DNA from: Paracoccaceae bacterium
GTDB taxonomy: Bacteria; Pseudomonadota; Alphaproteobacteria; Rhodobacterales; Rhodobacteraceae
Assembly: GCA_027486345.1 (NCBI GenBank)
Contig: JAIXPH010000050.1
Coordinates: 62,001 to 126,000 of the forward strand
Direction: 5' to 3'
DNA length: 64,000 nt
Shown: in pieces, positions 12,811 to 52,178 of the stretch
Layout: each line of letters opens with the position of its first letter
How positions within the stretch are numbered: position 1 is the stretch's first letter
Made by a program: the position numbers and the translations under genes
The notes under the pieces: model-generated
The model's input: the letters and a program-made list of their open reading frames with translations, nothing else
Database searches by the model: none
What the model was told of the DNA's origin: nothing

Positions 12811-13373
12811 GCTGATGCCCTCTTGGCAGAAAGGTCAAAGGATGTGGCCTTGGCGCGGACGGCCAGCGCGTCCCGCAGGGCCAGCGCGGCAGGCCAGGGG
12901 CCATAGCCGCTGGCGACGTTGATGTGACCGGCAAAGCCCAGATCGATGAGGTCGCCGCCCCAGACGGCGGCCAAGGCGGCACTGCGCGCCATGGGCATCC
13001 ATGGATCGTTGCGGCTGGCAACCACGGTGGTCGGCACGCCAAGCGCGCGTTCGGGGATGGGGCCAAAGGCGGCGATGCGGCGGCTGGTTTCGGGTTCCGC
13101 CGGCGCAACCAGCAGCGCCGCCGCCACCCGAAGTTGCGGCCAGCGCGTCAGGATGCGTGCCGCCGTCACTGCGCCAAGGCTGTGGCCGACAAGGATGCAG
13201 TCCGGATGGCGCAGGATGGCCCCCGCCACCTCGGTCTCCCAGGCCTCGGGCGTGGGGTTGGCCCAGTCGAGCTGTTCGACCATCAGCGCCTGAGGATCGG
13301 TCGCCGCCCACCAGTGCTGCCAATGCGGCGCGGGCGAGCCGTCCAGTCCGGGCAGAATCAGGGTCTTTGGCAT
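12807..13373 (-). CDS. RBBP9/YdeN-type serine hydrolase
   Basis: Alpha/beta hydrolase of 188 residues of the RBBP9/YdeN type, a group of small serine hydrolases with few known substrates. The opening TLILPGLDGSPAPHWQHWW is diagnostic. The nucleophile is S65 in GHSLGA, followed by the acid in SRNDPWMP and the histidine in GHINVASGYGPW, so the triad is complete. There is no signal peptide, so it is cytoplasmic. The gene ends in an ATGA overlap with a membrane microprotein and leads a three-gene micro-operon. The ligand is unknown. Confidence 0.87.
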   Translation of the reverse strand: MPKTLILPGLDGSPAPHWQHWWAATDPQALMVEQLDWANPTPEAWETEVAGAILRHPDCILVGHSLGAVTAARILTRWPQLRVAAALLVAPAEPETSRRIAAFGPIPERALGVPTTVVASRNDPWMPMARSAALAAVWGGDLIDLGFAGHINVASGYGPWPAALALRDALAVRAKATSFDLSAKRASA

Positions 13374-13579
13374 GGCACTCTCCTTTACCCCCTAATATCT
13401 ATCATGGTTGTCGTGATTTTGGTTCCAAAGAATCCGCCACAGAGAGAAAACCCTTCCCGTCTTGTCGGGTCGGGCGGGACGGGGGTGCTGGGGCGGGCGG
13501 TCACGCTTTTGAGGCTTGGCAACCTGCGGTTAACCTGTTGCAATCAGAATGTGTGTTGTTGTGTCTGTCGGGGTTGACC

Positions 13580-15208
13580 GTGAACCATCTCTATTATGGC
13601 GATAACCTGAAGGTCCTGCGCGAAAGCATCAAGGATGAGTCGGTCGATCTGGTCTATCTGGACCCGCCGTTCAATTCCAACGCGGGCTACAACATCCTGT
13701 TCAAGGCCCCGGACGGCAACCAAAGCCACGCGCAGATTGAGGCGTTTGACGACACCTGGCATTGGAACGACAGCGCGGAAGAGGCTTACGGCGATGTGAT
13801 GCGGGGCCGGAACGCCAATGTCAGCACCATGCTGCGGGCGATGCGGTCTGCCTTGGGCGACAATGATATGATGGCCTATCTGACCATGATGGCCGTGCGC
13901 CTTGTGGAGTTGCACCGCGTGCTGGCCCCCACCGGCAGCCTGTACCTGCACTGCGACCCGACCGCGAGCCACTACCTCAAGATCATTCTGGATGCGGTGT
14001 TTGGGGCGACGAATTTCCGTAATGAGATCATTTGGCAAAGGGCTATTGCCAAAGGTGATGCCACGACCAAGCTGTCTTGGAACCACGATGTTATTCTCTG
14101 CGTATCAAAGTCTGATCGCCCTGCGTTTTTCCCGATCTACGCAGACAAAGACGACGATTATGAGGGTCGTTTTCGGCTGGACGATAATGATGGACGAGGG
14201 AAGTATCGGCTGGCACCTCTCGACAGCCCAAACCCGCGCCCCAACCTGACCTATGAGTACAAGGGCTTCCAACCCCCACCCAAAGGGTGGCGAGTAAGCC
14301 TTGACGTGATGAAAAAGCTCGACGAGGAAGGGCGTCTCGCATTTCCAAAGAAACCAGACGGACGCATCGCCAAGAAGCATTATATCTCTGAACAACAGGG
14401 CAGAAAACTCGGTGATGTCTGGACAGACATACCACCCTTGCAGTCGGGACAACGTCTTGGCTATCCGACTGAAAAGCCCCCTTTGTTGCTTGAAAGAATA
14501 CTCTTGGCTTCTACCGTTCCGGGAGACGTGGTTCTCGACCCATTCTGTGGCTGCGGCACTACCGTCCATGTGGCTCAGAACCTCGGTCGCAATTGGATTG
14601 GTATCGATATCACCCACCTTGCCATCGGCCTGATCGAAAAGCGCCTGCGCGATGCCTATCGGATGCGACCGGATGATCTGTTCTTTCAGACCCACGGCGT
14701 GCCGCAAGACCTTGCCGGGGCCAAGGACATGGCCAACCGGGGCAAGACCGACAAGAATTACTATTTCGAGTTTGAAAAATGGGCGCTGTCCCTGATCGCC
14801 GCCCAACCCGGCAACCTGTCGAAAAAGGGCGCGGACAAGGGCATCGACGGCAATATGTGGTTCGGACCCAAGCATGAGGGCCGCGCCATCGTGTCCGTCA
14901 AGGCGGGCGAGAACATCAGCGTCCAGATGATCCGCGACCTGCGCGGTGTCATCGAACGCGAAAAGGCCGCCGTCGGCGTGTTCCTGACCTTGAACGAGCC
15001 CACCAAGCCAATGGTCGCCGAAGCCGCCGGTGCGGGCCAATACATCATGGACGGCTTTCCCCCCGTGCCGCGCATCCAGATCGTCACCATTGACGAGGCG
15101 TTGAAACTGCGCGACCGCGCCGTGAAACTCCCCGCCCGCCGCGATGACACCTTCAAGAAAGCCGCCGTCGAGAAGGACACTTCCTCGCAATGGTCGCTGA
15201 ACCTGTGA
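13580..15208 (+). CDS. DNA methyltransferase (beta-class) with C-terminal Mrr-like domain
   Basis: DNA adenine/cytosine-N4 methyltransferase of about 542 residues. The catalytic motif DPPFN (28-32) precedes the SAM-binding motif FCGCGTT (322-328), the order of beta-class enzymes (N6_N4_Mtase). The region between should hold the target-recognition domain. From about 395 the C-terminus resembles an Mrr-type PD-(D/E)xK nuclease: GADKGIDG with D423, then AIVSVKAG with K441, where serine replaces the usual Glu/Gln two residues before the lysine. It could be a self-contained restriction-modification enzyme or a methylase with a decayed nuclease fold. No restriction partner is adjacent. GTG 13580 or TTG 13574 are both possible starts. 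Base composition drops in the middle (about 14030-14600). Confidence 0.8.
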   Translation: MNHLYYGDNLKVLRESIKDESVDLVYLDPPFNSNAGYNILFKAPDGNQSHAQIEAFDDTWHWNDSAEEAYGDVMRGRNANVSTMLRAMRSALGDNDMMAYLTMMAVRLVELHRVLAPTGSLYLHCDPTASHYLKIILDAVFGATNFRNEIIWQRAIAKGDATTKLSWNHDVILCVSKSDRPAFFPIYADKDDDYEGRFRLDDNDGRGKYRLAPLDSPNPRPNLTYEYKGFQPPPKGWRVSLDVMKKLDEEGRLAFPKKPDGRIAKKHYISEQQGRKLGDVWTDIPPLQSGQRLGYPTEKPPLLLERILLASTVPGDVVLDPFCGCGTTVHVAQNLGRNWIGIDITHLAIGLIEKRLRDAYRMRPDDLFFQTHGVPQDLAGAKDMANRGKTDKNYYFEFEKWALSLIAAQPGNLSKKGADKGIDGNMWFGPKHEGRAIVSVKAGENISVQMIRDLRGVIEREKAAVGVFLTLNEPTKPMVAEAAGAGQYIMDGFPPVPRIQIVTIDEALKLRDRAVKLPARRDDTFKKAAVEKDTSSQWSLNL

Positions 15209-41715: not shown

Positions 41716-43986
41716 ATGGGTATTGTTAACGCGATTCTGAACTCTGTGGCCGATCCGGCCATCCTGCTTGATCCGGAGGGGGTCATCCGCCGGGCCAACA
41801 GCCTGTGGTCCGAACGATTGGGCTTGGACCCCGCCGCCCTGATCGGCAGGCGGTGGATTGACCATCTTCACCCCGCAGACCACGCTGAAGCCGCCGCTGC
41901 CCTGGTGGCGCTGGCGGCGGGGGGGCGGGTGGAGCAACTGACCTGTCGGTGGCAGGACGAGGCGGGGGGCTGGCACGATCTGGATTGGTCGGCCCGCTAC
42001 AACCCCGCCATTCTGGGCAGCGTGGCGGTGGCCCGCATCCTGTCGCCCGGTCATAATGCCATCGCCCGTCTGGATGAGATCGAGACCGTCTCGGGTGTGG
42101 GAAGTTGGGAAGCCTCTGTCGATACGGGGCAGATTTACTGGTCACCGCTGACCTTCCGCCTGCACGACCTTGCCCCGGACAAGCAACCCGACCTTGCCTC
42201 GGCGCTGTCCTTCTTCACCGGCGCGGCGCGCGCCACGGTCGAGTCGGCCTTCGACCGCTTGCGCAGCGATGGCACCCCCTATGATCTGGAACTGCCCTTC
42301 ACCACAGCGACGGGCCGGTCGATCTGGGTGCGTGCGACCGGGGCCGCGCAGTTCCGCGACGGGCGGCTGGTGCGCGCTTACGGGACATTTCAGGACATCT
42401 CGGACCGCCGCGCGCGCGAGCAGCATCTGCAAGACGCGCGGCAAGCCGCTGTGGCGGCGCGCGAACAGCTTGTCACCGCGGTCGAAAGTCTGCCGGATGG
42501 CTTCGTGCTTTACGACCATGCCGATCGTCTGGTCATCGCCAACCGGCGCTATCGCGAAATCTATGCCGAAAGTGCTGCCGCGATGATCCCCGGCACGCGG
42601 TTTCAGGATATCCTGCAATACGGGCTGGACCGGGGCCAATACCGCGATGCCGTCGGACGCGAGGCGGACTGGCTGGCCGAGCGGCTGGAGCGTCATCGCA
42701 ACCCCGTGGGGGTGATCGAACAGCGGTTGGCCAATGGCCGGGTCCTGCGGATCTTCGAGCGCCGCACCCCCGAGGGTGGCAGCGTGGGCCTGCGGGTCGA
42801 CATGACCGAGCTTTACGACGCGCGCGAAAGGGCCGAGGCCGCGAACCGCGCCAAGGCGCATTTCCTCGCCAACATGAGCCACGAGCTGCGCACGCCGTTG
42901 AACGGCATCCTCGGGATGGCTGATCTTCTGGCGGCCGACCTCACCGACCCCGCCAAGCTGGCCTTGGCCGACAGCATCCGCGACAGCGGCGAAACGCTGC
43001 TGGCCGTGCTGAACGACCTGCTGGACATGTCCAAGATCGACGCGGGCCGGATGGAGTTGGAAAACGCGCCCTTCGTCCCCGCCGATATCCTGCGCCGGGT
43101 TGAGGCGCTTTATGCTTTGCGGGCGCAGGAAAAGGGTCTGAAACTGACGGTGGACCTGCCGCCATCGGCCGAAGAGCCGCGCCGGGGCGACGGGCATCGG
43201 GTGGCGCAAATCCTGCACAACCTGTTGTCCAATGCGGTGAAATTCACCTCAAGCGGTCAGGTCGCGGTCACGGTGCGGGCAGAAGGGCCCTTGGTGGTGA
43301 CGGTCAGGGACAGCGGCATCGGCATGAGCCCTGATGAGGTGGCGCGCATCTTCGACGATTTCGAGCAGGCCGACCGCGGCACCAACCGGCGTTTCGGCGG
43401 CACGGGCCTGGGCCTGTCCATCGTGCGAAAGCTGGTGGCGATGATGGGCGGATTGGTGGAGGTGGACAGCGTCAAGGGTCAGGGCACGACCATCACGGTG
43501 ACCTTGCCCTTGCCACGGGTCGTGGCCACGGATGCGGCGGACCCGCCCAAACCCGCGTCCTGCGCCCTCGCACGGCTTGCGGGCAAACGGGCGCTGATCG
43601 CGGATGATAACCCGGTCAATCTGCAGATCCTGCATGCCTATCTGACGCGCTTCGGCCTGTCGGTCACCATGGCAGAGAACGGGCGTCAGGCGGTCGATCT
43701 GTTCCGGCAGGGGTCCTTCGACCTGATCTGTCTGGACATCTCAATGCCCGAACTGGACGGAGTCACCGCGCTGGCCGAGATCGACCGCATTGCTCGCCGC
43801 TCTGGCATCGCGCGCCCGCCCGCCGTCGCTGTCACGGCGAATGCGATGGCCCATCACGTCGAGGAATATCTTGCCGCGGGCTTTGATGCCCATCTGGCCA
43901 AGCCGATCCGGCGCGAACAGACCGGGCATACCCTTGCCGCGCTGCTGGATGCGGGGGTGCAGAGCGAGGTCCAGAGGGCGACCTAA
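41716..43986 (+). CDS. PAS-containing hybrid sensor histidine kinase
   Basis: Hybrid two-component kinase of 756 residues with no membrane segments, so a cytoplasmic sensor. Three PAS-like domains (about 1-110, 115-235, 245-375) are followed by HisKA with H389 in NMSHELRTPLNG. Next come HATPase_c with NLLSNAVKF, DSGIGM and FGGTGLGLSI, and a C-terminal receiver with phospho-accepting D674 (CLDISMPELDG) and K in LAKPIRR. No Hpt domain or cognate regulator is nearby. It follows the flagellar operon on the same strand after 157 nt; a motility link is possible but not shown. Confidence 0.9.
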   Translation: MGIVNAILNSVADPAILLDPEGVIRRANSLWSERLGLDPAALIGRRWIDHLHPADHAEAAAALVALAAGGRVEQLTCRWQDEAGGWHDLDWSARYNPAILGSVAVARILSPGHNAIARLDEIETVSGVGSWEASVDTGQIYWSPLTFRLHDLAPDKQPDLASALSFFTGAARATVESAFDRLRSDGTPYDLELPFTTATGRSIWVRATGAAQFRDGRLVRAYGTFQDISDRRAREQHLQDARQAAVAAREQLVTAVESLPDGFVLYDHADRLVIANRRYREIYAESAAAMIPGTRFQDILQYGLDRGQYRDAVGREADWLAERLERHRNPVGVIEQRLANGRVLRIFERRTPEGGSVGLRVDMTELYDARERAEAANRAKAHFLANMSHELRTPLNGILGMADLLAADLTDPAKLALADSIRDSGETLLAVLNDLLDMSKIDAGRMELENAPFVPADILRRVEALYALRAQEKGLKLTVDLPPSAEEPRRGDGHRVAQILHNLLSNAVKFTSSGQVAVTVRAEGPLVVTVRDSGIGMSPDEVARIFDDFEQADRGTNRRFGGTGLGLSIVRKLVAMMGGLVEVDSVKGQGTTITVTLPLPRVVATDAADPPKPASCALARLAGKRALIADDNPVNLQILHAYLTRFGLSVTMAENGRQAVDLFRQGSFDLICLDISMPELDGVTALAEIDRIARRSGIARPPAVAVTANAMAHHVEEYLAAGFDAHLAKPIRREQTGHTLAALLDAGVQSEVQRAT

Positions 43987-44855
43987 AGCGCCACCATGTC
44001 CACCGCCTGGCTGGAGCTTTGCCCCCCCGCGATCCGCAGCACACCGGCGACCGGGGCAACGTCGCCATAATCGCGGCCATGTGCGACGGTCACGTGATCC
44101 TCACCGGCGAAACAGGCATTGGTCGGGTCATAGTCGATCCAGCCTGCGCGCGGCCCGGCCCAGACCCGCACCCAGGCGTGCATGGCATCCGCGCCCTCCA
44201 GCCGGGGTTGGCCGGGCGGGGGCAGGGTCCGCAGGTAGCCCGAGACATAGCCCGCCGGGACCCCCATCCCGCGCAGGCCGGCAATCATGATCTGGGCGAA
44301 GTCCTGACAGACCCCAGTCTTCTTGGCAAAGGCCTCGGACGGGGGGGTGTCCACCGTCGTGGCCAGTGCGTCAAAGGTCAGGGTGTCGTGCAAGGCGCGC
44401 CCCAGGGCCTCGGTCACGGCGATCAGGCCGTGGTGGCCTGCGACCACCTCACGCGCAAAGGCGGTGATGGCCGCATCGGGTGGAATGCGCGGCGAGGGGG
44501 GCAGGAAATGATGCGGGGCATCTGGCGCGATGGACAGATAGCCCGACAGGAGTGCGGGCAGGTCCGTCAGCGCCCCATCCGTTTGCGGCAGCGATTGGGG
44601 CAGGCGGTCCACCACGGCGCGGGCCTCGAAGGCCACGGCGTCATGGCCTGCGGGCAGCGACAGTTCGGTGACGGCATTGCCGAAGAAGTCGGTGAAATTG
44701 CGCCGCTCCACCGGCTGCGGGTGGATCGTCAGCGCAGATGAGCGCACCGTCTGCCGCCCCGGCAGATGCGCGGGCAACAGCCGCAGCAGGTGGCGCCCGC
44801 CCCCGGCCGGTGTGGCGTAGTCATAGCGGATCACCAGTTTGATGTCATAGAGCAT
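43983..44855 (-). CDS. Transglutaminase-like protein of the ATP-grasp/alpha-E cluster
   Basis: Cysteine-protease-fold protein of 290 residues with a transglutaminase N-terminal beta domain (about 1-85) and core (about 160-245). The triad is intact: C183 in TGVCQDFAQIM, H226 in DAMHAWVRVW and D243 in DYDPTN. Such proteins may cut or form amide bonds. The start overlaps the preceding stop (TGATG), so it is the third gene of a coupled three-gene operon with the ATP-grasp/alpha-E and DUF2126 proteins. Its real substrate is unknown. Confidence 0.9.
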   Translation of the reverse strand: MLYDIKLVIRYDYATPAGGGRHLLRLLPAHLPGRQTVRSSALTIHPQPVERRNFTDFFGNAVTELSLPAGHDAVAFEARAVVDRLPQSLPQTDGALTDLPALLSGYLSIAPDAPHHFLPPSPRIPPDAAITAFAREVVAGHHGLIAVTEALGRALHDTLTFDALATTVDTPPSEAFAKKTGVCQDFAQIMIAGLRGMGVPAGYVSGYLRTLPPPGQPRLEGADAMHAWVRVWAGPRAGWIDYDPTNACFAGEDHVTVAHGRDYGDVAPVAGVLRIAGGQSSSQAVDMVAL

Positions 44856-47218
44856 CAGCGCAGGTATCCTTCGGTCACCAGATCGGACAGGGCCGCCAGA
44901 TCGGCGCGGAACGTCCAAAGCGCCGCCGTATCCAGCGTCTCGGGTGTGGCGCGGTCCAATCGGCTGTGCAGCGCCGCCACGGCCCGCGACAGTGCCACGG
45001 TCGATCCCCGCCCACTGGCCCCCGGCAGATGCGAAAGCTGGTCGCGGATGCCGTCCAGTTGAAAGCGGATGGCGCGGGGGTTCATCTCATCCAGCGCCAG
45101 AAGCTCCACCACCGTCTCGCGCGCGGTCACAAGGGCAAAGCGGCGGCGGTGGGTCATCACGCTGTCGCCCACCTCAATCGCCAGATCGAGCGCACCTTCG
45201 GGGGCTGTCGGATCGGCCAGCGTGGCAAGGATCGCCGTCATCCCCATCGCGCGTTCATGGTGCTGGCCCAGTTTCAGGAAGCGCCAGCCAAGGAAGCGAT
45301 ACATGTTCTCATGCACCAGACCGGAAAATCCCGTCAGCTTGCGCAACAGCTTGCCGATCGCGCGGGCGGCATCGTCGCCCACAGTCACGCGCTGCGCCAT
45401 CCGCCGCATGGTCTTGTCGAGGTCAGCCAGCGCCGACCAACCGTCTGGCGAGAAGCGGTCGCGCACCGCGCCTGCGCTGTAGATGGCCGCGCCGAGGGTC
45501 TGGATCAGGCCCTGTGGGATGCCCTCATTGGGATCGACGCCCAGCACGGTCAGCAGCGGGTCCATTCCGGACAGCAAGGGACTTGCCGCGCTGCCGCCTT
45601 CGGCCAGCCGTGCGTTGCGGGCGCGCAAGAGGCGCAGGATGCCTTCGGTGCGTTCAACATAGCGGCCCAGCCAGAACAGGTTGTCCGCCGCCCGCGCGGG
45701 CAGGACCGACAAGCCACGGCGGGCAACCTCTCCACCTGCGGGCAGCAGGGTGGCGGCCTCGACCGAGCGGGGGCTGACGATCCAGACATCCGCCGCCGCG
45801 CCACCCTTTTGCATGGCGATGGCGGCGGCATCCCCGCCGCGCCCGATGCGGGCAAAGCCGCCGGGCATCACCTCCCACCCTTGGGAGGTGCGCAGAAGAA
45901 AGACCCGCAGGCTCATGGGACGCGGGCGCAGGCGGCCATCGACAAAGGCGGGGGTGGTGGACAGGGTGACCCGCTCCTGCCCCACATACTGCGCGCCATG
46001 CTCAGCCAGCCAATCGGGCAGGGGGCCGATGGGGCGATGATCCTGACCATCCTCATAGGGCGGGCGAGTGGAGAGCGCCGGAGAGATGAACATCCGGTCC
46101 GCATTGGCGGCGACATGATCGCGTTCGGCAGGTTGCCCGCACCACCATGTGGCGACATTGGGCAGGATCAGGTCTTGGCCCAGCAGCGCCCGCGCGATCT
46201 TGGGCAGAAAGGCCAGAAACGCCCGCGTTTCCAACACGCCAGAGCCAAGGGCATTGACCATCGTCGCGGTCTGATCCCGCAGCGCCGACACCATCCCCGG
46301 CGTGCCCAAGCGGCTGGCGGGGTCCAGTTCCAACGGGTCCGCCCAGCCGGAATCCAGCCGCCGCCACAGCACGGACACCGGGGTCAACCCGGCCACAGTG
46401 CGGATCATCAGGCGGCCATCGCTGACAGTCAGATCTTCGCCCTGCGCGAGCAGAAAGCCCAGATAGCGGGCGATATAGGCGTGCTCGAAATAGGTATCGG
46501 TCAGCGGCCCCGGCGTCAGGATCGCCACACGGCTGTCAGGCTCGGCCCGCAGGTCCATCAGCGCGTTGCGGAAACTGCGAAAGAACCCGGCCAAGCGGTG
46601 CACATGCGCGCCGGGGTAGAAATCGGAAAACACGCGCGACGTCGCCACCCGGTTTTCCAACGCGAACCCGGCACCAGATGGCGCTTGCGTGCGGTCCCCC
46701 AAGACCCACCAACGGCCATCGGGTCCGCGCCCGATCTCGAAGGCCACGAAATGCAGATGATGCCCGCCACGCGGGGTGATCCCCACCATCGGGCGCAGCC
46801 ATTCGGGGTTTCCCGCCACAAGCGCGGGCGGCAAGTGGCCCTCTGTCACCAGCCGACCGGGGCCGTAAAGATCGGCCATCACCTGTTCCAAAAGGTTCGC
46901 GCGTTGGATCAGGCCGCGGGTGATGTCGCCCCAATCGGATTCCTCGATCAGCACCGGGACATGCGACAGCGGCCATTCCCGCTCGGCCGGGCCAGACTCG
47001 CCGTAATGGCGCAGGTAGACCCCTTGATCACGCAGATATTGATCGCCGCGCGCAAAGCGTTGGGCCCAGCCTTCGGGTGCGGTGGCCGACAGATGCGCCA
47101 ACAGACCCGCCCAGACCGGACGGACCGTGCCATCGGGGGCCAAAAGCTCGTCCGCGACCCCGGCAAGGGGGCGATATCCCGCCAAGAGGGGCGGCAAAGG
47201 CAGGGGCAGCGGGTCCAT
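44855..47218 (-). CDS. Circularly permuted ATP-grasp / alpha-E fusion protein
   Basis: Fusion of 787 residues. The first 480 or so are a circularly permuted ATP-grasp (type 2, COG2308), with HYGESGPAEREWPLSHVPVL, GITPRGGHHLHFVAFEIG and LGDRTQAPSGAGFALENR. From about 495 an alpha-E helical domain follows (LPARAADNLFWLGRYVERTE). Many genomes encode the two parts separately. ATP-grasp enzymes usually join a carboxylate to an amine, so a peptide or amide ligase is predicted. Six bases separate it from the DUF2126 gene and it overlaps the next transglutaminase gene. No substrate is known to me. Confidence 0.9.
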   Translation of the reverse strand: MDPLPLPLPPLLAGYRPLAGVADELLAPDGTVRPVWAGLLAHLSATAPEGWAQRFARGDQYLRDQGVYLRHYGESGPAEREWPLSHVPVLIEESDWGDITRGLIQRANLLEQVMADLYGPGRLVTEGHLPPALVAGNPEWLRPMVGITPRGGHHLHFVAFEIGRGPDGRWWVLGDRTQAPSGAGFALENRVATSRVFSDFYPGAHVHRLAGFFRSFRNALMDLRAEPDSRVAILTPGPLTDTYFEHAYIARYLGFLLAQGEDLTVSDGRLMIRTVAGLTPVSVLWRRLDSGWADPLELDPASRLGTPGMVSALRDQTATMVNALGSGVLETRAFLAFLPKIARALLGQDLILPNVATWWCGQPAERDHVAANADRMFISPALSTRPPYEDGQDHRPIGPLPDWLAEHGAQYVGQERVTLSTTPAFVDGRLRPRPMSLRVFLLRTSQGWEVMPGGFARIGRGGDAAAIAMQKGGAAADVWIVSPRSVEAATLLPAGGEVARRGLSVLPARAADNLFWLGRYVERTEGILRLLRARNARLAEGGSAASPLLSGMDPLLTVLGVDPNEGIPQGLIQTLGAAIYSAGAVRDRFSPDGWSALADLDKTMRRMAQRVTVGDDAARAIGKLLRKLTGFSGLVHENMYRFLGWRFLKLGQHHERAMGMTAILATLADPTAPEGALDLAIEVGDSVMTHRRRFALVTARETVVELLALDEMNPRAIRFQLDGIRDQLSHLPGASGRGSTVALSRAVAALHSRLDRATPETLDTAALWTFRADLAALSDLVTEGYLR

Positions 47219-47224
47219 TCCTGT

Positions 47225-50200
47225 TTACAGACCCGGCGCGCGCCGAAGGTCAAGCGTCATCGGAAATTCCGGATGCGGATGTTCTGGCGGCGGCGCATAG
47301 CGTCCGGGGGTGTGGCCATGCGGTTCAAAGCGGGACAGACGCCGCGCCTCGGCCTCATTGCCGTTGATGGGGAAGGTCTCATAGTTGCGCCCGCCGGGAT
47401 GGGCGACGTGATAGACACAGCCCGCCAAGGCCCGGCCCGACCAGCGATCAAAGATGTCAAAGGTCAGCGGCGCATCGACGCGCAGCACGGGATGCATGGC
47501 GCTGGCGGGTTGCCACGCCTTATACCGCACGCCGCCCACCGCTTGGCCCGCCTGTCCCGTCGCGCGCAACGGCACGCGGCGGCCATTGCAGGCGACATCA
47601 TAGCGCGACGGATCGGCGGTGGTCAGTTGCACCTGCACCCGCTCGGTCGAGCTATCCGTATAGCGCACCGTTCCACCGATGGCCCCGGTTTCGCCCAAGA
47701 CATGCCACGGCTCCAGCGCCTGACGGATTTCCAGATGCACGCCCTCGGCCTGAACCTCGCCGCAGAAGGGGAAGCGGAATTCCAGATGGGCGGCAAACCA
47801 ATCCGGGTCAAAGTCAAAGCCATGCGCGCGCAGATCGGCCAGAACGTCTTGGAAATCCTGCCAGACATAGGCCGGCAGCATGAAGCGATCATGCAGGGCG
47901 GTGCCCCAGCGGGTCAGTGCCCCATCTGCAGGATTGGCCCAGAACCGCGCGATCAGGGCGCGCAGCAGCAGTTGTTGGGCAAGGCTCATCTTCGCATCGG
48001 GCGGCATCTCAAAGCCGCGAAACTCCACCAGACCCAACCGGCCTGTGGGACCATCGGGGGAGAACATCTTGTCGATGCAAATCTCGGCCCGGTGGGTGTT
48101 GCCGGTGACATCGGTCAGGATATTGCGCAGCAGACGGTCGGTCAGCCACGGCAAGGGCGGCACACCCTGACCGGGGGCGGGGATTTGGGCCAGCGCGATT
48201 TCCAGCTCATACAGACTGTCGTGTCGCGCCTCATCGATGCGGGGGGCTTGTGACGTGGGGCCGATGAAGAGGCCTGAGAACAGGTAGGACAGCGACGGAT
48301 GCCGGTTCCAGTGCAGGATCAGGCTTTTCAGCAGATCCGGCCGCCGCAGGAAGGGGCTGTCGTTCGGCGTCGCCCCCCCGACCACCACATGGTTGCCGCC
48401 GCCCGTGCCACAATGCTTGCCGTCGATCATGAACTTGTCGGCACCAAGGCGGCACAGGCGGGCCTCTTCATAGACCGCCGTGGTGATGTCCACACAGTCT
48501 TGCCAGTTGGTGGCGGGGTGGATGTTCACCTCGATCACACCCGGATCAGGGGCAACGCGGATGACGTTCAGACGCGGGTCATGCGGCGGGGCGTAGCCTT
48601 CGATGTGGACGGGCATGCCCAGCCGCTTTGCCGCCGCCTCTGCCGCGCGGATCAGGTCGAGGTATTCTTCCATGCTGACGGTCGGCGGCATGAAGACGCA
48701 CAGCCTGCCATCCCGCGCCTCAACGCTGACAGCCGTGCGGACGTGGCCGTCGATTTCCACCGTGGTCTGGGCCACTTGGGTCTGGTTGCCGACATTGGGC
48801 AGGAAACTGGCCATCGGCTGCGCCTTGCGCCCGCCCTCAATGGGGGCGACGTCGGGCAGGGGCGCGCGATCCACAGTGGGATCGGTCGGGTTGATGTAAG
48901 GGTAAGCCGAAGGCGGCACCCACGGCAGCGCCGACAGCGGCAGGCGATAGCCCACGGGGCTGTCACCGGGGACAAGGAACATATGCCCTCGCCGCAGCCG
49001 CCAGCGTTCGGACCGCCAGCGCCGCCGGTCGGTTGACGCGCCCTGCCACGCCTGCACCGGCAGGACAAAGCCGGTGGGCACGGTCAGACCGCGGTTGAAG
49101 ACGGTGGCCAGACGGTGCCGTTCTTCGGGGTCCTCAAGTTTGGAGTTGGCGGGGGTGACGTTGGCGGGCAGGTTCGCCTCTTTCACCAGCCACTCTGCCG
49201 GGTCCTCATAGGCGGGCAGGATGTATTCCTCGGTCACCTCAAGCTCTGCCGCGATTTCGCGCAGCAATTCCTGCGCGTCGTGCGAGGAAACCTTACGACG
49301 GTCGCCTTCCTCGGCCACCAAAGCCGCATCCTGCCAGATCGGCTGCCCGTCCCGCCGCCAATAGAGCGAGAAGGTCCAGCGCGGCAAGGTCTCACCCGGA
49401 TACCACTTGCCCTGCCCGTAATGCAGAAATCCCCCCGGCGCGAAGCGGTCGCGCAGGCGGCGGATCAACTGATCCGCCAGCGTGCGCTTGGTCGGCCCCA
49501 CGGCGGCGGTGTTCCATTCCGGCGCTTCGAAATCGTCGATGGAGACAAACGTCGGCTCTCCGCCCATGGTCAGACGCACATCGCCTGCCTCAAGCGCGGC
49601 ATCGACCTTTTGGCCGAGGGTGTTCAGCGCCTGCCAACCTGCATCGTCAAAGGGTTTGGTGATGCGCGGATGTTCGGAAACGCGGGTCACCTGCATGTCA
49701 AAGGCGAAATCCACCTTTTCCGTCACGCCGAAATAGCCGCCGGAAATCGGCGCGGCATTGCGGTAATGCGGGGTGGCGGCCAAGGGGATATGGCTTTCGC
49801 CCGCCAGAAGGCCGCTCGTCGGGTCCAGCCCGATCCAGCCCGCGCCGGGCAGATAGACCTCAACCCACGCATGCAGGTCGGTGAAATCCACCTCTGTCCC
49901 CGATGGGCCGTCCAGCGCCTTCAGGTCGGGTTTCAACTGGATCAGATAGCCCGACACAAAGCGCGCGGCGAACCCCAGATGGCGCAGGGCCTGCACCAGC
50001 AGCCAAGAGGAATCCCGGCAAGAGCCTGATCCAAGCCCAAGCGTTTCCTCAGGAGTCTGCACCCCGGCCTCCATGCGGATGGTGTAGTTCACCACCTGCG
50101 CGATTTGCGCGTTCAGGCCGACGACGAAATCCACCGTGCGTTTGCGGTCGCATGGCACGGTTTCAAGGAAAGCCCGCAAGAGGTCACCCGCTGGTTCGGG

Positions 50201-50554
50201 GGTCGTATAGATCACCAGATCGCGTTGCAGATCGAGGGGGTAGTCAAAGGGCCACTCCTCGGCGCTTTCCTCGACGAAAAAGTCAAAGGGGTTATAGACC
50301 GACATGTCGGCGACAAGATCGACCTCGATCTTGAACTCTGTCACCGGCTCGGGAAAGACAAAGCGGGCCAGCCAGTTGCCGTAGATGTCCTGCTGGTGGT
50401 TCACGAAATGCTTGGCCGGGCTGACCTTCAGCGAATGGCTGATCACCCGCGTGCGGCTGTGCGGGGCGGGGCGCAGGCGGATGATCTGCGGGCCAAGCAG
50501 GACCGGGCGGTCATAGGTGTACTGCGTCAGGTGGTGGATGCTGGCCTTGATCAT
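47225..50554 (-). CDS. DUF2126 protein with N-terminal transglutaminase domain
   Basis: Large protein of 1109 residues. An N-terminal transglutaminase unit (to about 290) has the complete triad C179 ([12 protein letters not shown]), H228 (LHAWVEV) and D244 (GLDPTSG). The rest is DUF2126, with a glycine-rich signature [17 protein letters not shown] near residue 710 and NIHPATNWQ, reminiscent of glutamate-cysteine-ligase-like amidoligases. No signal peptide. It is first of the three-gene operon; AT-richer DNA and divergent dadA lie upstream. The family is widespread and uncharacterised. Confidence 0.9.
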
Positions 50555-50714
50555 GGGGTCCGTTCCGCTGGGCTTTGGGCCACGCTTTCACAGGCGGGGG
50601 CGGTTTGGCCACCGCCAAGCCGCCAGAAGGCGCAGATTGGCCGCGCAATCTTCGGGCAGTGCCTGATTTTTGGGCGATGGCAAGGTTTCCCGCCGATTCT
50701 GAAATCGGACGGAC

Positions 50715-50738
50715 TTTATTGCGTGAGTTATCAATAAA
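50715..50738. promoter_or_regulatory. AT-rich inverted repeat upstream of dadA
   Basis: TTTATTG (50715-50721) and CAATAAA (50732-50738) form a perfect seven-base inverted repeat with a ten-base spacer, in a strikingly AT-rich part of the 319-base gap 50555-50873. It is a candidate operator for dadA or for the divergent DUF2126 operon. Confidence 0.45.
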
Positions 50739-50757
50739 AGGTGGAAATCATCTTCAT

Positions 50758-50877
50758 ATGACTAGTATGGCCGAAGAAGCTTGCACAAAGGTCAGTAAAT
50801 CTGCCCATCTTCGCCAAAACCTTTCCGTGCCTTCCGCTATTCTGGGCAGGACTCAAGCAAAAGGGTGCGGGCGATGA
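50758..50877 (+). CDS. Candidate 39-residue leader ORF overlapping dadA
   Basis: Short frame beginning [20 protein letters not shown] whose TGA overlaps the dadA ATG as ATGA. AAGGTGG lies 12 nt before its ATG, a loose ribosome site. It could couple translation of dadA, or be chance; codon use is less GC-rich than in nearby genes. Confidence 0.3.
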
Positions 50878-52178
50878 AGATCGTGGTTCTGGGCAGCGGC
50901 GTGATCGGGGTGACCTCGGCTTGGTATCTGGCCAAGGCGGGGCATGAGGTCACGGTGATCGACCGCCAGCCTGCCCCCGCGCTGGAAACCAGTTTTGCCA
51001 ATGCGGGCGAAGTCAGCCCCGGCTATTCCGCCCCTTGGGCCGCGCCGGGCATCCCGCTGAAGGCCATGAAATGGCTGTTCATGGAACATGCGCCGCTGAT
51101 CATCCAGCCCAAGCCCGATTGGGCCAAGCTGAAATGGATGGCGCGGATGCTGATGAACTGCACTGCCGACGCCTATGCCGTGAACAAGTCGCGCATGGTG
51201 CGGCTGGCAGAATACTCGCGCGATTGCCTCGCCGATCTGCGCGAGGAAACCGCGCTGCACTATGACGAACGCATGCAGGGCACGTTGCAACTGTTCCGCA
51301 CCGAAAAGCAGGTGGCGGCGGCGGCCAAGGATATTGCCGTCCTGCAAGCCGATGGCGTGCCGTTTGAGGTGCTGAGCGCGGATGAATGTGTGGCCGCAGA
51401 GCCGGGCCTTGCCGATGCGCGGGCCAAGATCGCGGGCGGTTTGCGCCTGCCGGGCGATGAAACCGGCGATTGCTTCAAGTTCACCAATGGTCTGGCGGCG
51501 CTGGCCGAACAGGCGGGCGTGACCTTCCGCTATGGCGTGGGGATTGAGGGGCTGGAGGAATCGGCTGGCCGCATCGTCGCCGTTCGCACCGCCGAAGGCC
51601 GCGTGACGGCGGATGCTTTCGTGGTGGCGCTGGGGTCCTATTCGCCTTTCCTCGTGAAGCCGTTGGGGATCGACCTGCCGGTCTATCCGGTCAAGGGCTA
51701 TTCGATCACCGTCCCGGTGGTGAACGACGCCCGCGCGCCGGTCTCCACCGTGATGGACGAAACCCACAAGATTGCCATCACCCGTTTGGGCGACCGCATC
51801 CGCGTGGGTGGCATGGCCGAGATTGCAGGGTTCGACCTGTCCCTGAACCCCAAACGCCGCGCGACGCTGGAGCATTCCGTTGAGGATCTGTTCGGCGGCG
51901 CGGGGGATCAGTCGAAAGCCAGCTTCTGGTGTGGTCTGCGCCCGATGACGCCCGATGGCACACCCGTTGTTGGACGCACCGGCTTTGCCAACCTGTTCCT
52001 AAACACCGGGCATGGCACCTTGGGTTGGACCATGGCAGCCGGGTCGGGTCGGGTGCTGGCCGATATCGTCAGCGGTCGCGCGACGGAGATTGACGCGACC
52101 GACCTTGGCCTGTCGCGCTACCTGCGCGCCACGCGCCGCGCACCCATGGCGGGCAAGGCAATTCCGGCGGCGGTCTGA
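50874..52178 (+). CDS. dadA: D-amino acid dehydrogenase
   Basis: FAD-dependent D-amino acid dehydrogenase small subunit, 434 residues. It oxidises D-alanine and other D-amino acids to 2-oxo acids and passes electrons to the membrane chain. The FAD-binding [17 protein letters not shown] (7-23) opens the protein; [20 protein letters not shown] and the C-terminal [18 protein letters not shown] are DadA hallmarks. AAGGG at 50861-50865 supports ATG 50874. No alanine racemase or Lrp-type regulator gene is adjacent. Confidence 0.95.

Follow-up and report, generated by a model that had tools for sequence, protein, structure and literature searches.

Which product of an operon that joins putative ligases to transglutaminase-like enzymes would spend ATP on forming a bond, and on which partners would it depend? 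We addressed this question for three genes at 43983-50554, on the minus strand, of a 64,000-nucleotide stretch of DNA from a Paracoccaceae bacterium (assembly GCA_027486345.1, contig JAIXPH010000050.1, positions 62,001 to 126,000; hereafter, the window). A reading made from the letters alone (hereafter, the sequence-only reading) had described the locus as a three-gene system that contains a pair of ATP-dependent ligases. One half of this pair, the DUF2126 domain of gene 1, stands as a putative amide ligase, but the other half, the ATP-grasp domain fused to alpha-E in gene 2, does not: across all the fused sequences, the asparagine of the E-x-N motif is replaced in 102/102 and the glutamate in 100/102. 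Moreover, three genes proved to be too small a unit, because each of the 92 genomes with DUF2126 also holds alpha-E and an ATP-grasp gene of the intact type. All residue and co-occurrence tests reported here cover a single phylum, that of the window. The features are the following:

47225..50554, minus strand: gene 1, 1109 amino acids, DUF2126, a putative glutamine synthetase (GS)-like amidoligase, fused behind a transglutaminase-like N-terminal region and core (Pfam, triad, motifs, fold search)
44855..47218, minus strand: gene 2, 787 amino acids, circularly permuted (CP) ATP-grasp without most of the presumed ATP/Mg positions, fused to Alpha-E (Pfam, match to the solved structure 3n6x, residue loss)
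43983..44855, minus strand: gene 3, 290 amino acids from the ATG, stand-alone transglutaminase-like protein (Pfam, TGATG junction, triad, matches to 6g49 and 3isr)
50555..50864, minus strand: upstream intergenic region, common to the operon and a divergent DAO-family gene; presumed promoter region

The residue loss in gene 2 becomes apparent when 91 fused ATP-grasps (window included; drawn from 101 DUF2126 loci, 10 of which were without one at 60% coverage) are aligned with 14 stand-alone ATP-grasps, with positions numbered according to L035, a stretch of contig C60 of the same genome. In the stand-alone proteins, D198, E211, N213, K372, K419, the GGYG stretch and N510 are identical in 14/14, and the same positions are identical in 20 more proteins from 19 DUF2126 genomes (34/34 in total). 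Among the fused ATP-grasps, N213 is kept in 0/91 (arginine in 88, histidine in 2, lysine in 1), E211 in 1 (aspartate in 3), K372 in 2, K419 in 6 and N510 in 2, and position 198 is glutamate in 49 and aspartate in 42. On a five-position score that counts D/E and N/D swaps as kept, 80 fused proteins keep one position, 10 keep two and 1 keeps three. We take positions of the D198, E211, N213, K372 and K419 type to bind ATP and Mg, from general knowledge of ATP-grasps and from their invariance; gene 2 of the window has E, G, R, R and S there and thus lacks most of the residue set presumed for an active CP ATP-grasp.

This loss appears to be selective because R143, D153, D212, R227, E285, D302, D334 and R499 are retained in at least 86 of the 91 fused proteins, and the arginine found in place of N213 is conserved in its turn, an indication of a putative re-use of the domain rather than decay. 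The fused and stand-alone ATP-grasps form separate clades in the tree (split support 1.0), with a mean identity in sampled pairs of 49% within the fused group, 59% within the stand-alone group and 30% between the two, and 3n6x scores 215.7 bits against gene 2 compared to 673 bits against the stand-alone paralogue. A literature search for descriptions of inactive ATP-grasps found none. Judging from these residues, gene 2 is probably a pseudo-enzyme, and very likely dead as a ligase. The alpha-E part is modelled with high confidence (predicted local distance difference test, pLDDT, 93.4) as a helical domain; a fold search of the PDB gave no significant match to a solved structure (lowest E 0.055; the template modelling score, TM, does not exceed 0.40 among the top rows), and its assignment to a known fold was rejected.

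The fused gene also occurs where DUF2126 does not. Among 299 sampled genomes of the phylum, 11 (L190-L200) carry at least two alpha-E genes with no match to either DUF2126 or Anbu, a relative of the proteasome, and the fused gene 2 is present in 11/11 of these. Their fused ATP-grasps keep N213 in 0/11 (R, H, G or Q instead) and E211 in 1/11, with D or E at position 198 in 11/11; gene 2 thus looks like a pseudo-ATP-grasp even without DUF2126. A strict tie between gene 2 and DUF2126 was therefore rejected, and the persistence of genes 2 and 3 in such genomes implies that DUF2126 is not needed for the role of gene 2. All 11 genomes match the stand-alone ATP-grasp, which, rather than DUF2126, is the constant companion of gene 2; hence, we moved the presumed partner of gene 2 from DUF2126 towards the intact ATP-grasp, which left our confidence in the explanations as it was.

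These data bear directly on the possibility that DUF2126 and the fused ATP-grasp are both active ATP-dependent ligases that jointly make or attach a peptide at the locus. The fused domain scores strongly as CP_ATPgrasp_2 (residues 88-458 of gene 2, 439 bits in Pfam; Alpha-E follows at 506-786 with 178 bits), and many residues are kept, position 198 being acidic in all 91 and in all 11 proteins, as this possibility would predict. However, the near-complete loss of the other positions among the 91, as opposed to their invariance in the 34 stand-alone proteins, is repeated for E211 and N213 in the 11 further fused proteins, and in 5/92 DUF2126 genomes the single ATP-grasp match scores as the intact type. 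We consider two active ligases at this locus highly unlikely and return to the reading in which gene 2 is a pseudo-enzyme that works with an intact ATP-grasp encoded elsewhere.

A candidate for this partner is present in the same genome: a second operon, at 67333-72154 of contig C60 (L035:5331-10155), encodes a stand-alone ATP-grasp, alpha-E, a transglutaminase and Anbu in one run, and is likely to be the partner module of the DUF2126 operon. In the 299 genomes, DUF2126 is found in 92, Anbu in 115 and alpha-E in 171. Alpha-E occurs in 92/92 DUF2126 genomes, with two copies in 83, three in 3 and one in 6, and the 57 genomes with Anbu only have one alpha-E in 55 cases and none in 2. DUF2126 and Anbu occur together in 58 genomes; 34 have only DUF2126, 57 only Anbu and 150 neither (Fisher p 9e-9, not corrected for kinship), so that the Anbu link, given the 34 genomes, is not obligatory. 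The ATP-grasp of the Anbu operon, used as a query, matches 172/299 genomes, including 92/92 with DUF2126, with a best E of 1.1e-140 or better as judged by eye. Because the same query scores 470-1219 bits against the 14 stand-alone ATP-grasps and 201-306 bits against the 91 fused ones, these best matches belong to the stand-alone type. The dependence is thus one-sided: in this sample, DUF2126 is not seen without a stand-alone ATP-grasp, and the latter is often found without DUF2126.

In some genomes, the two modules are also physically close. In Pseudooceanicola pacificus (L038), they are divergent neighbours 201 nucleotides apart. We also looked at 20 loci that are more distant, some of them chosen for an Anbu gene close by; the fetched stretch contains a stand-alone ATP-grasp and alpha-E in 12 of the 20 (L116, L117, L119-L122, L124, L126, L127, L132-L134), and in one further locus (L118) Anbu lies beside DUF2126. 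In 11 of the 17 genomes for which the distance was measured, out of the 58 with both, the DUF2126 and Anbu matches are less than 1 kb apart. The stand-alone kind of ATP-grasp, in the Anbu operon of Yersinia bercovieri, releases phosphate from ATP, according to the part of PMC6376114 that we cite, and the same part reports that peptidase activity of Anbu was not found in that study. We have high confidence that the operon is part of an Anbu-associated amidoligase system.

The part of gene 1 that is likely to be a ligase is DUF2126 (residues 280-1104, 1336 bits), which Pfam labels a putative amidoligase. Its motifs GGEPTF, GVIEVN, GTGGGNH, SQAPR and EFR are at least 98% conserved at most positions in 101 sequences, and their order resembles that of the acidic, GSG-H, arginine and ExR motifs of GS, a comparison made partly by eye, with the GS motifs read in their usual roles. 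When the DUF2126 profile is aligned (hhalign) with GS, represented by five paralogues from this genome, GVIEVN falls on GQFEVN(L) and GTGGGNH on GSGLH. An AlphaFold2 model computed from 41 sequences (predicted TM score, pTM, 0.77) was searched against 350,542 PDB chains, and 49 of the 50 matches listed are glutamine synthetases, all of them weak; a sequence search for DUF2126 among solved structures gave nothing credible. The fold list, the profile and the motif order together support, without being proof of, a GS-like ligase, and we consider it probable that DUF2126 is an active one. DUF2126 is present in 92/299 genomes of the phylum, yet our literature search found no functional study of it.

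The transglutaminase-like domains appear to be in working order, as the sequence-only reading had claimed for two intact Cys-His-Asp triads. In gene 1 (Pfam Bact_transglu_N 5-82 and Transglut_core 147-245), the triad is C179/H228/D244, identical in 101/101 sequences with the window included. In gene 3, where Pfam finds the same two domains, it is C183/H226/D243 when numbered from the ATG at 44855, with the three positions kept in 90, 90 and 89 of 90 sequences, the single exception being a gap; this protein also matches the solved structures 6g49 (2e-8) and 3isr (1e-6). Both genes thus have the triad of transglutaminase-like cysteine enzymes, and the alignments support active-looking transglutaminase-fold domains. 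In one locus (L124) of the six examined, a transglutaminase of the Anbu-type module has serine in place of the catalytic cysteine.

The three genes are intact, lie on one strand and are tightly packed from 50554 to 43983, and Pfam and the coordinates agree with the extents and domains given before, including the fusion of permuted ATP-grasp and alpha-E. Genes 1 and 2 are separated by 6 nucleotides (TAA ACAGGA ATG), and genes 2 and 3 overlap by 1 nucleotide (TGATG) with the ATG start at 44855 or by 64 with an upstream TTG, again as anticipated. An NCBIfam search of the operon gave no match up to E 0.1. The closest relatives of the locus, at 80% identity, are in a Pseudorhodobacter sp. and in a Rhodobacteraceae metagenome-assembled genome, so that the genome studied here probably belongs to the same family. 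We compared the operon with 80 alphaproteobacterial loci, the best of at least 593 confirmed matches. The complete trio is found in the same order and on one strand in 71/80 (L106 included), and for this reason the arrangement is not due to chance and the proposal of one conserved operon holds; among the remaining nine, five are cut by a contig end (L053, L058, L064, L085, L093) and in four (L054, L073, L078, L095) no partner lies closer than about 9 kb. The loci with the trio include that of Sinorhizobium fredii USDA 205 (L044). In L106, from Bradyrhizobium macuxiense, gene 2 is split over two overlapping frames, the only such case in the 80 loci, which reflects either a sequencing error or a broken gene. 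Among 50 of 252 plasmid rows, a single one came from outside Pseudomonadota, a cyanobacterium, and it matched in the transglutaminase part only; Synechococcus elongatus, by contrast, gave matches for both DUF2126 and alpha-E.

Conservation also bears on a role in conflict. Gene sets that combine a ligase with a peptidase occur in some defence systems, so an anti-phage or other conflict function is conceivable for this operon. However, a PADLOC search gave no match up to E 1, upon which a defence system was rejected, the gene order is fixed, and DUF2126 is evenly conserved (63-73% identity in 6 rows of the same class and 53-58% in 8 other rows); we therefore regard such a function as extremely improbable. 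Elsewhere in the window, at 13001-15208 on the plus strand, there is a 735-amino-acid protein in which an N6/N4 DNA methylase domain is joined to an Mrr-type restriction endonuclease domain. On the 3' side of the operon, a plus-strand gene (41716-43986), whose product is a hybrid sensor histidine kinase that carries PAS and receiver domains, converges on gene 3, the 3' ends overlapping by 4 nucleotides. On the other side, at 50865-52178 on the plus strand, lies the divergent DAO-family flavin adenine dinucleotide (FAD) oxidoreductase, which we take to be DadA-like.

From the domains, the intact triads, the loss of the presumed ATP/Mg positions in gene 2 and the co-occurrence, we infer a complex, its chemistry and the making of any tag. 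Under this model, DUF2126 of gene 1 would be a working ligase in which ATP activates a carboxylate that is then joined to an amine, and it would act as an additional enzyme alongside the intact ATP-grasp/alpha-E pair encoded beside Anbu. Gene 2 would most likely assist that pair, whether as a scaffold, by binding the substrate or by regulating it. In genes 1 and 3, the transglutaminase-like domains would hold the product as a thioester and then trim, release or transfer it; that ligation is opposed by enzymes of this type has, in our estimate, an even chance of being correct. The explanation as a whole, an Anbu-associated amidoligase operon with a DUF2126 ligase, a pseudo-ATP-grasp in gene 2 and transglutaminase trimming or transfer, is the one that we favour with modest confidence. 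A bolder version, in which this operon and the distant Anbu operon form one seven-protein peptide-conjugation machine, with the GS-like protein and the intact ATP-grasp as ligases, the pseudo-ATP-grasp/alpha-E protein as scaffold or carrier, three transglutaminase-fold enzymes for trimming or transfer and Anbu as an optional peptidase, seems unlikely.

Several observations weigh against this explanation. Genes 2 and 3 persist side by side without DUF2126 in 10 of the 11 genomes described above, and gene 2 persists alone in the eleventh (L199); Anbu has no match in 34/92 DUF2126 genomes. The confidence of the DUF2126 model is moderate (pLDDT 72.9), its best fold match to GS has an E of 0.02 and a target TM of about 0.25, with none reaching E 0.001, and the profile match is weak as well (E 0.013, probability 3.4%; one control, alpha-E, gave E 0.24). 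With respect to gene 2, position 198 is acidic in all fused proteins, and a few of these keep E211, K372 or K419. Furthermore, calling the lost positions catalytic draws on general ATP-grasp knowledge and invariance, because the stand-alone ATP-grasp, when compared to E. coli Gss, yielded 21 columns at E 0.31, which is not a real alignment; this enzyme (GspS) was therefore dropped as a residue yardstick, and a literature search for its residues gave nothing relevant. Finally, a published pull-down, as described in PMC6376114, found no specific interactions among the proteins of the Anbu operon.

The product could also be a free small peptide, an amide metabolite or a nitrogen store made under nitrogen limitation, with proteins left unmodified. 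In the excerpted results of PMC8050072, Pseudomonas putida PP_2685 (Anbu) and PP_2688 (CP ATP-grasp) change by +4.44 and +3.99 log2 on nitrate versus ammonium, together with urt and ure genes; the NtrC-regulon table for Burkholderia cenocepacia, as excerpted from PMC5491218, gives −8.2 for a DUF404/407 gene and −9.4 for a DUF403 gene; and the relevant passage of PMC3597751 reports, for marine metagenomes, a clustering of these domains with urea metabolism. A survey of sigma-54 regulons (PMC12316311) lists a cluster of orthologous groups (COG). These nitrogen data, as far as the excerpts go, indicate that the Anbu-type module responds to nitrogen, and they concern that module, not DUF2126. Against them stands PMC5666114, which describes operon expression that is unchanged under various conditions other than nitrogen limitation. 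A regular expression for a sigma-54-like site found none upstream of DUF2126 (80 sequences) or of 14 stand-alone ATP-grasp genes, and a nitrogen promoter was rejected on that account. The COG in the survey is, we presume, Anbu. The neighbourhood of the operon cuts both ways: among 81 loci, no conserved small open reading frame that could be a ribosomally made tag and no widely conserved neighbour family was found (the widest, downstream, spans 15), so that a ribosomal tag was rejected, but a widely conserved biosynthetic or export gene was not found nearby either. A free metabolite is a real possibility, although we judge it less than even, and the Anbu-associated amidoligase explanation remains our preference.

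If gene 2 is indeed a pseudo-enzyme, testing the fused ATP-grasp on its own would give a failed assay that is then misread, and the ligases to be tested would be DUF2126 and the distal ATP-grasp. Which proteins to purify together can be read from the pattern of co-occurrence, and, if the explanation is true, Anbu gains a concrete set of partners.

How does this operon compare with systems already described? DUF2126 is akin to the glutamine synthetase superfamily in its ordered, resembling motifs, with the GS paralogues of this genome as reference, and in the GS chains that head its fold list, but differs in its approximately 830 residues with insertions, in its fusion to a transglutaminase and in that neither its sequence nor its fold gives a significant match to GS. 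The solved CP ATP-grasp 3n6x, a putative glutathionylspermidine synthase, belongs to the same permuted family as gene 2; the E-D-N and NSSQGGGxKDTW motifs that it has in common with the stand-alone paralogue are both absent from gene 2. The Pseudomonas RloABC/RimBK proteins, as presented in the consulted part of PMC12239564, show a related logic of ATP-grasp, transglutaminase fold and peptidase in Rlo, but the membrane transglutaminase there is inactive and the peptidases are of the aspartic type, and that part does not mention alpha-E or DUF2126. The Anbu operon, for example that of Y. bercovieri, is closer, with paralogous ATP-grasp, alpha-E and transglutaminase and a full copy on contig C60 of this genome; unlike the operon studied here, it has the N-terminal nucleophile (Ntn) hydrolase Anbu, separate ATP-grasp and alpha-E genes with the ATP/Mg residues kept, and no DUF2126.

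The system had been thought to be undescribed, but the sections of PMC5666114, PMC6376114 and PMC3597751 that we cite attribute to Iyer et al. 2009 the proposal of a system for peptide synthesis, modification or tagging built of ATP-grasp, alpha-E and transglutaminase; the first two include Anbu in it, and none of the three crediting texts names DUF2126. Given this credit and the existing Pfam label of DUF2126, the mechanism put forward in the sequence-only reading is close to a published proposal. The families of that proposal are encoded together here, and the Anbu link is present in the same genome on another contig. The abstract of the original proposal is said to count a permuted glutamine-synthetase-like ligase among the components as well, and a GS-like amidoligase is presumably common to that system and to the DUF2126 operon. 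What the present analysis adds is the residue loss in gene 2, the GS-like look of DUF2126, the co-occurrence of DUF2126 with an intact ATP-grasp and the existence of gene 2 without DUF2126. Compared to the system of Iyer et al. 2009, as the crediting passages present it, the present one has the same CP ATP-grasp, alpha-E and transglutaminase, and the idea behind both is that peptides are synthesised, modified or used as tags, but here DUF2126 lies in an operon separate from that of Anbu, and this operon carries an ATP-grasp of its own that is without most of the presumed ATP/Mg positions.

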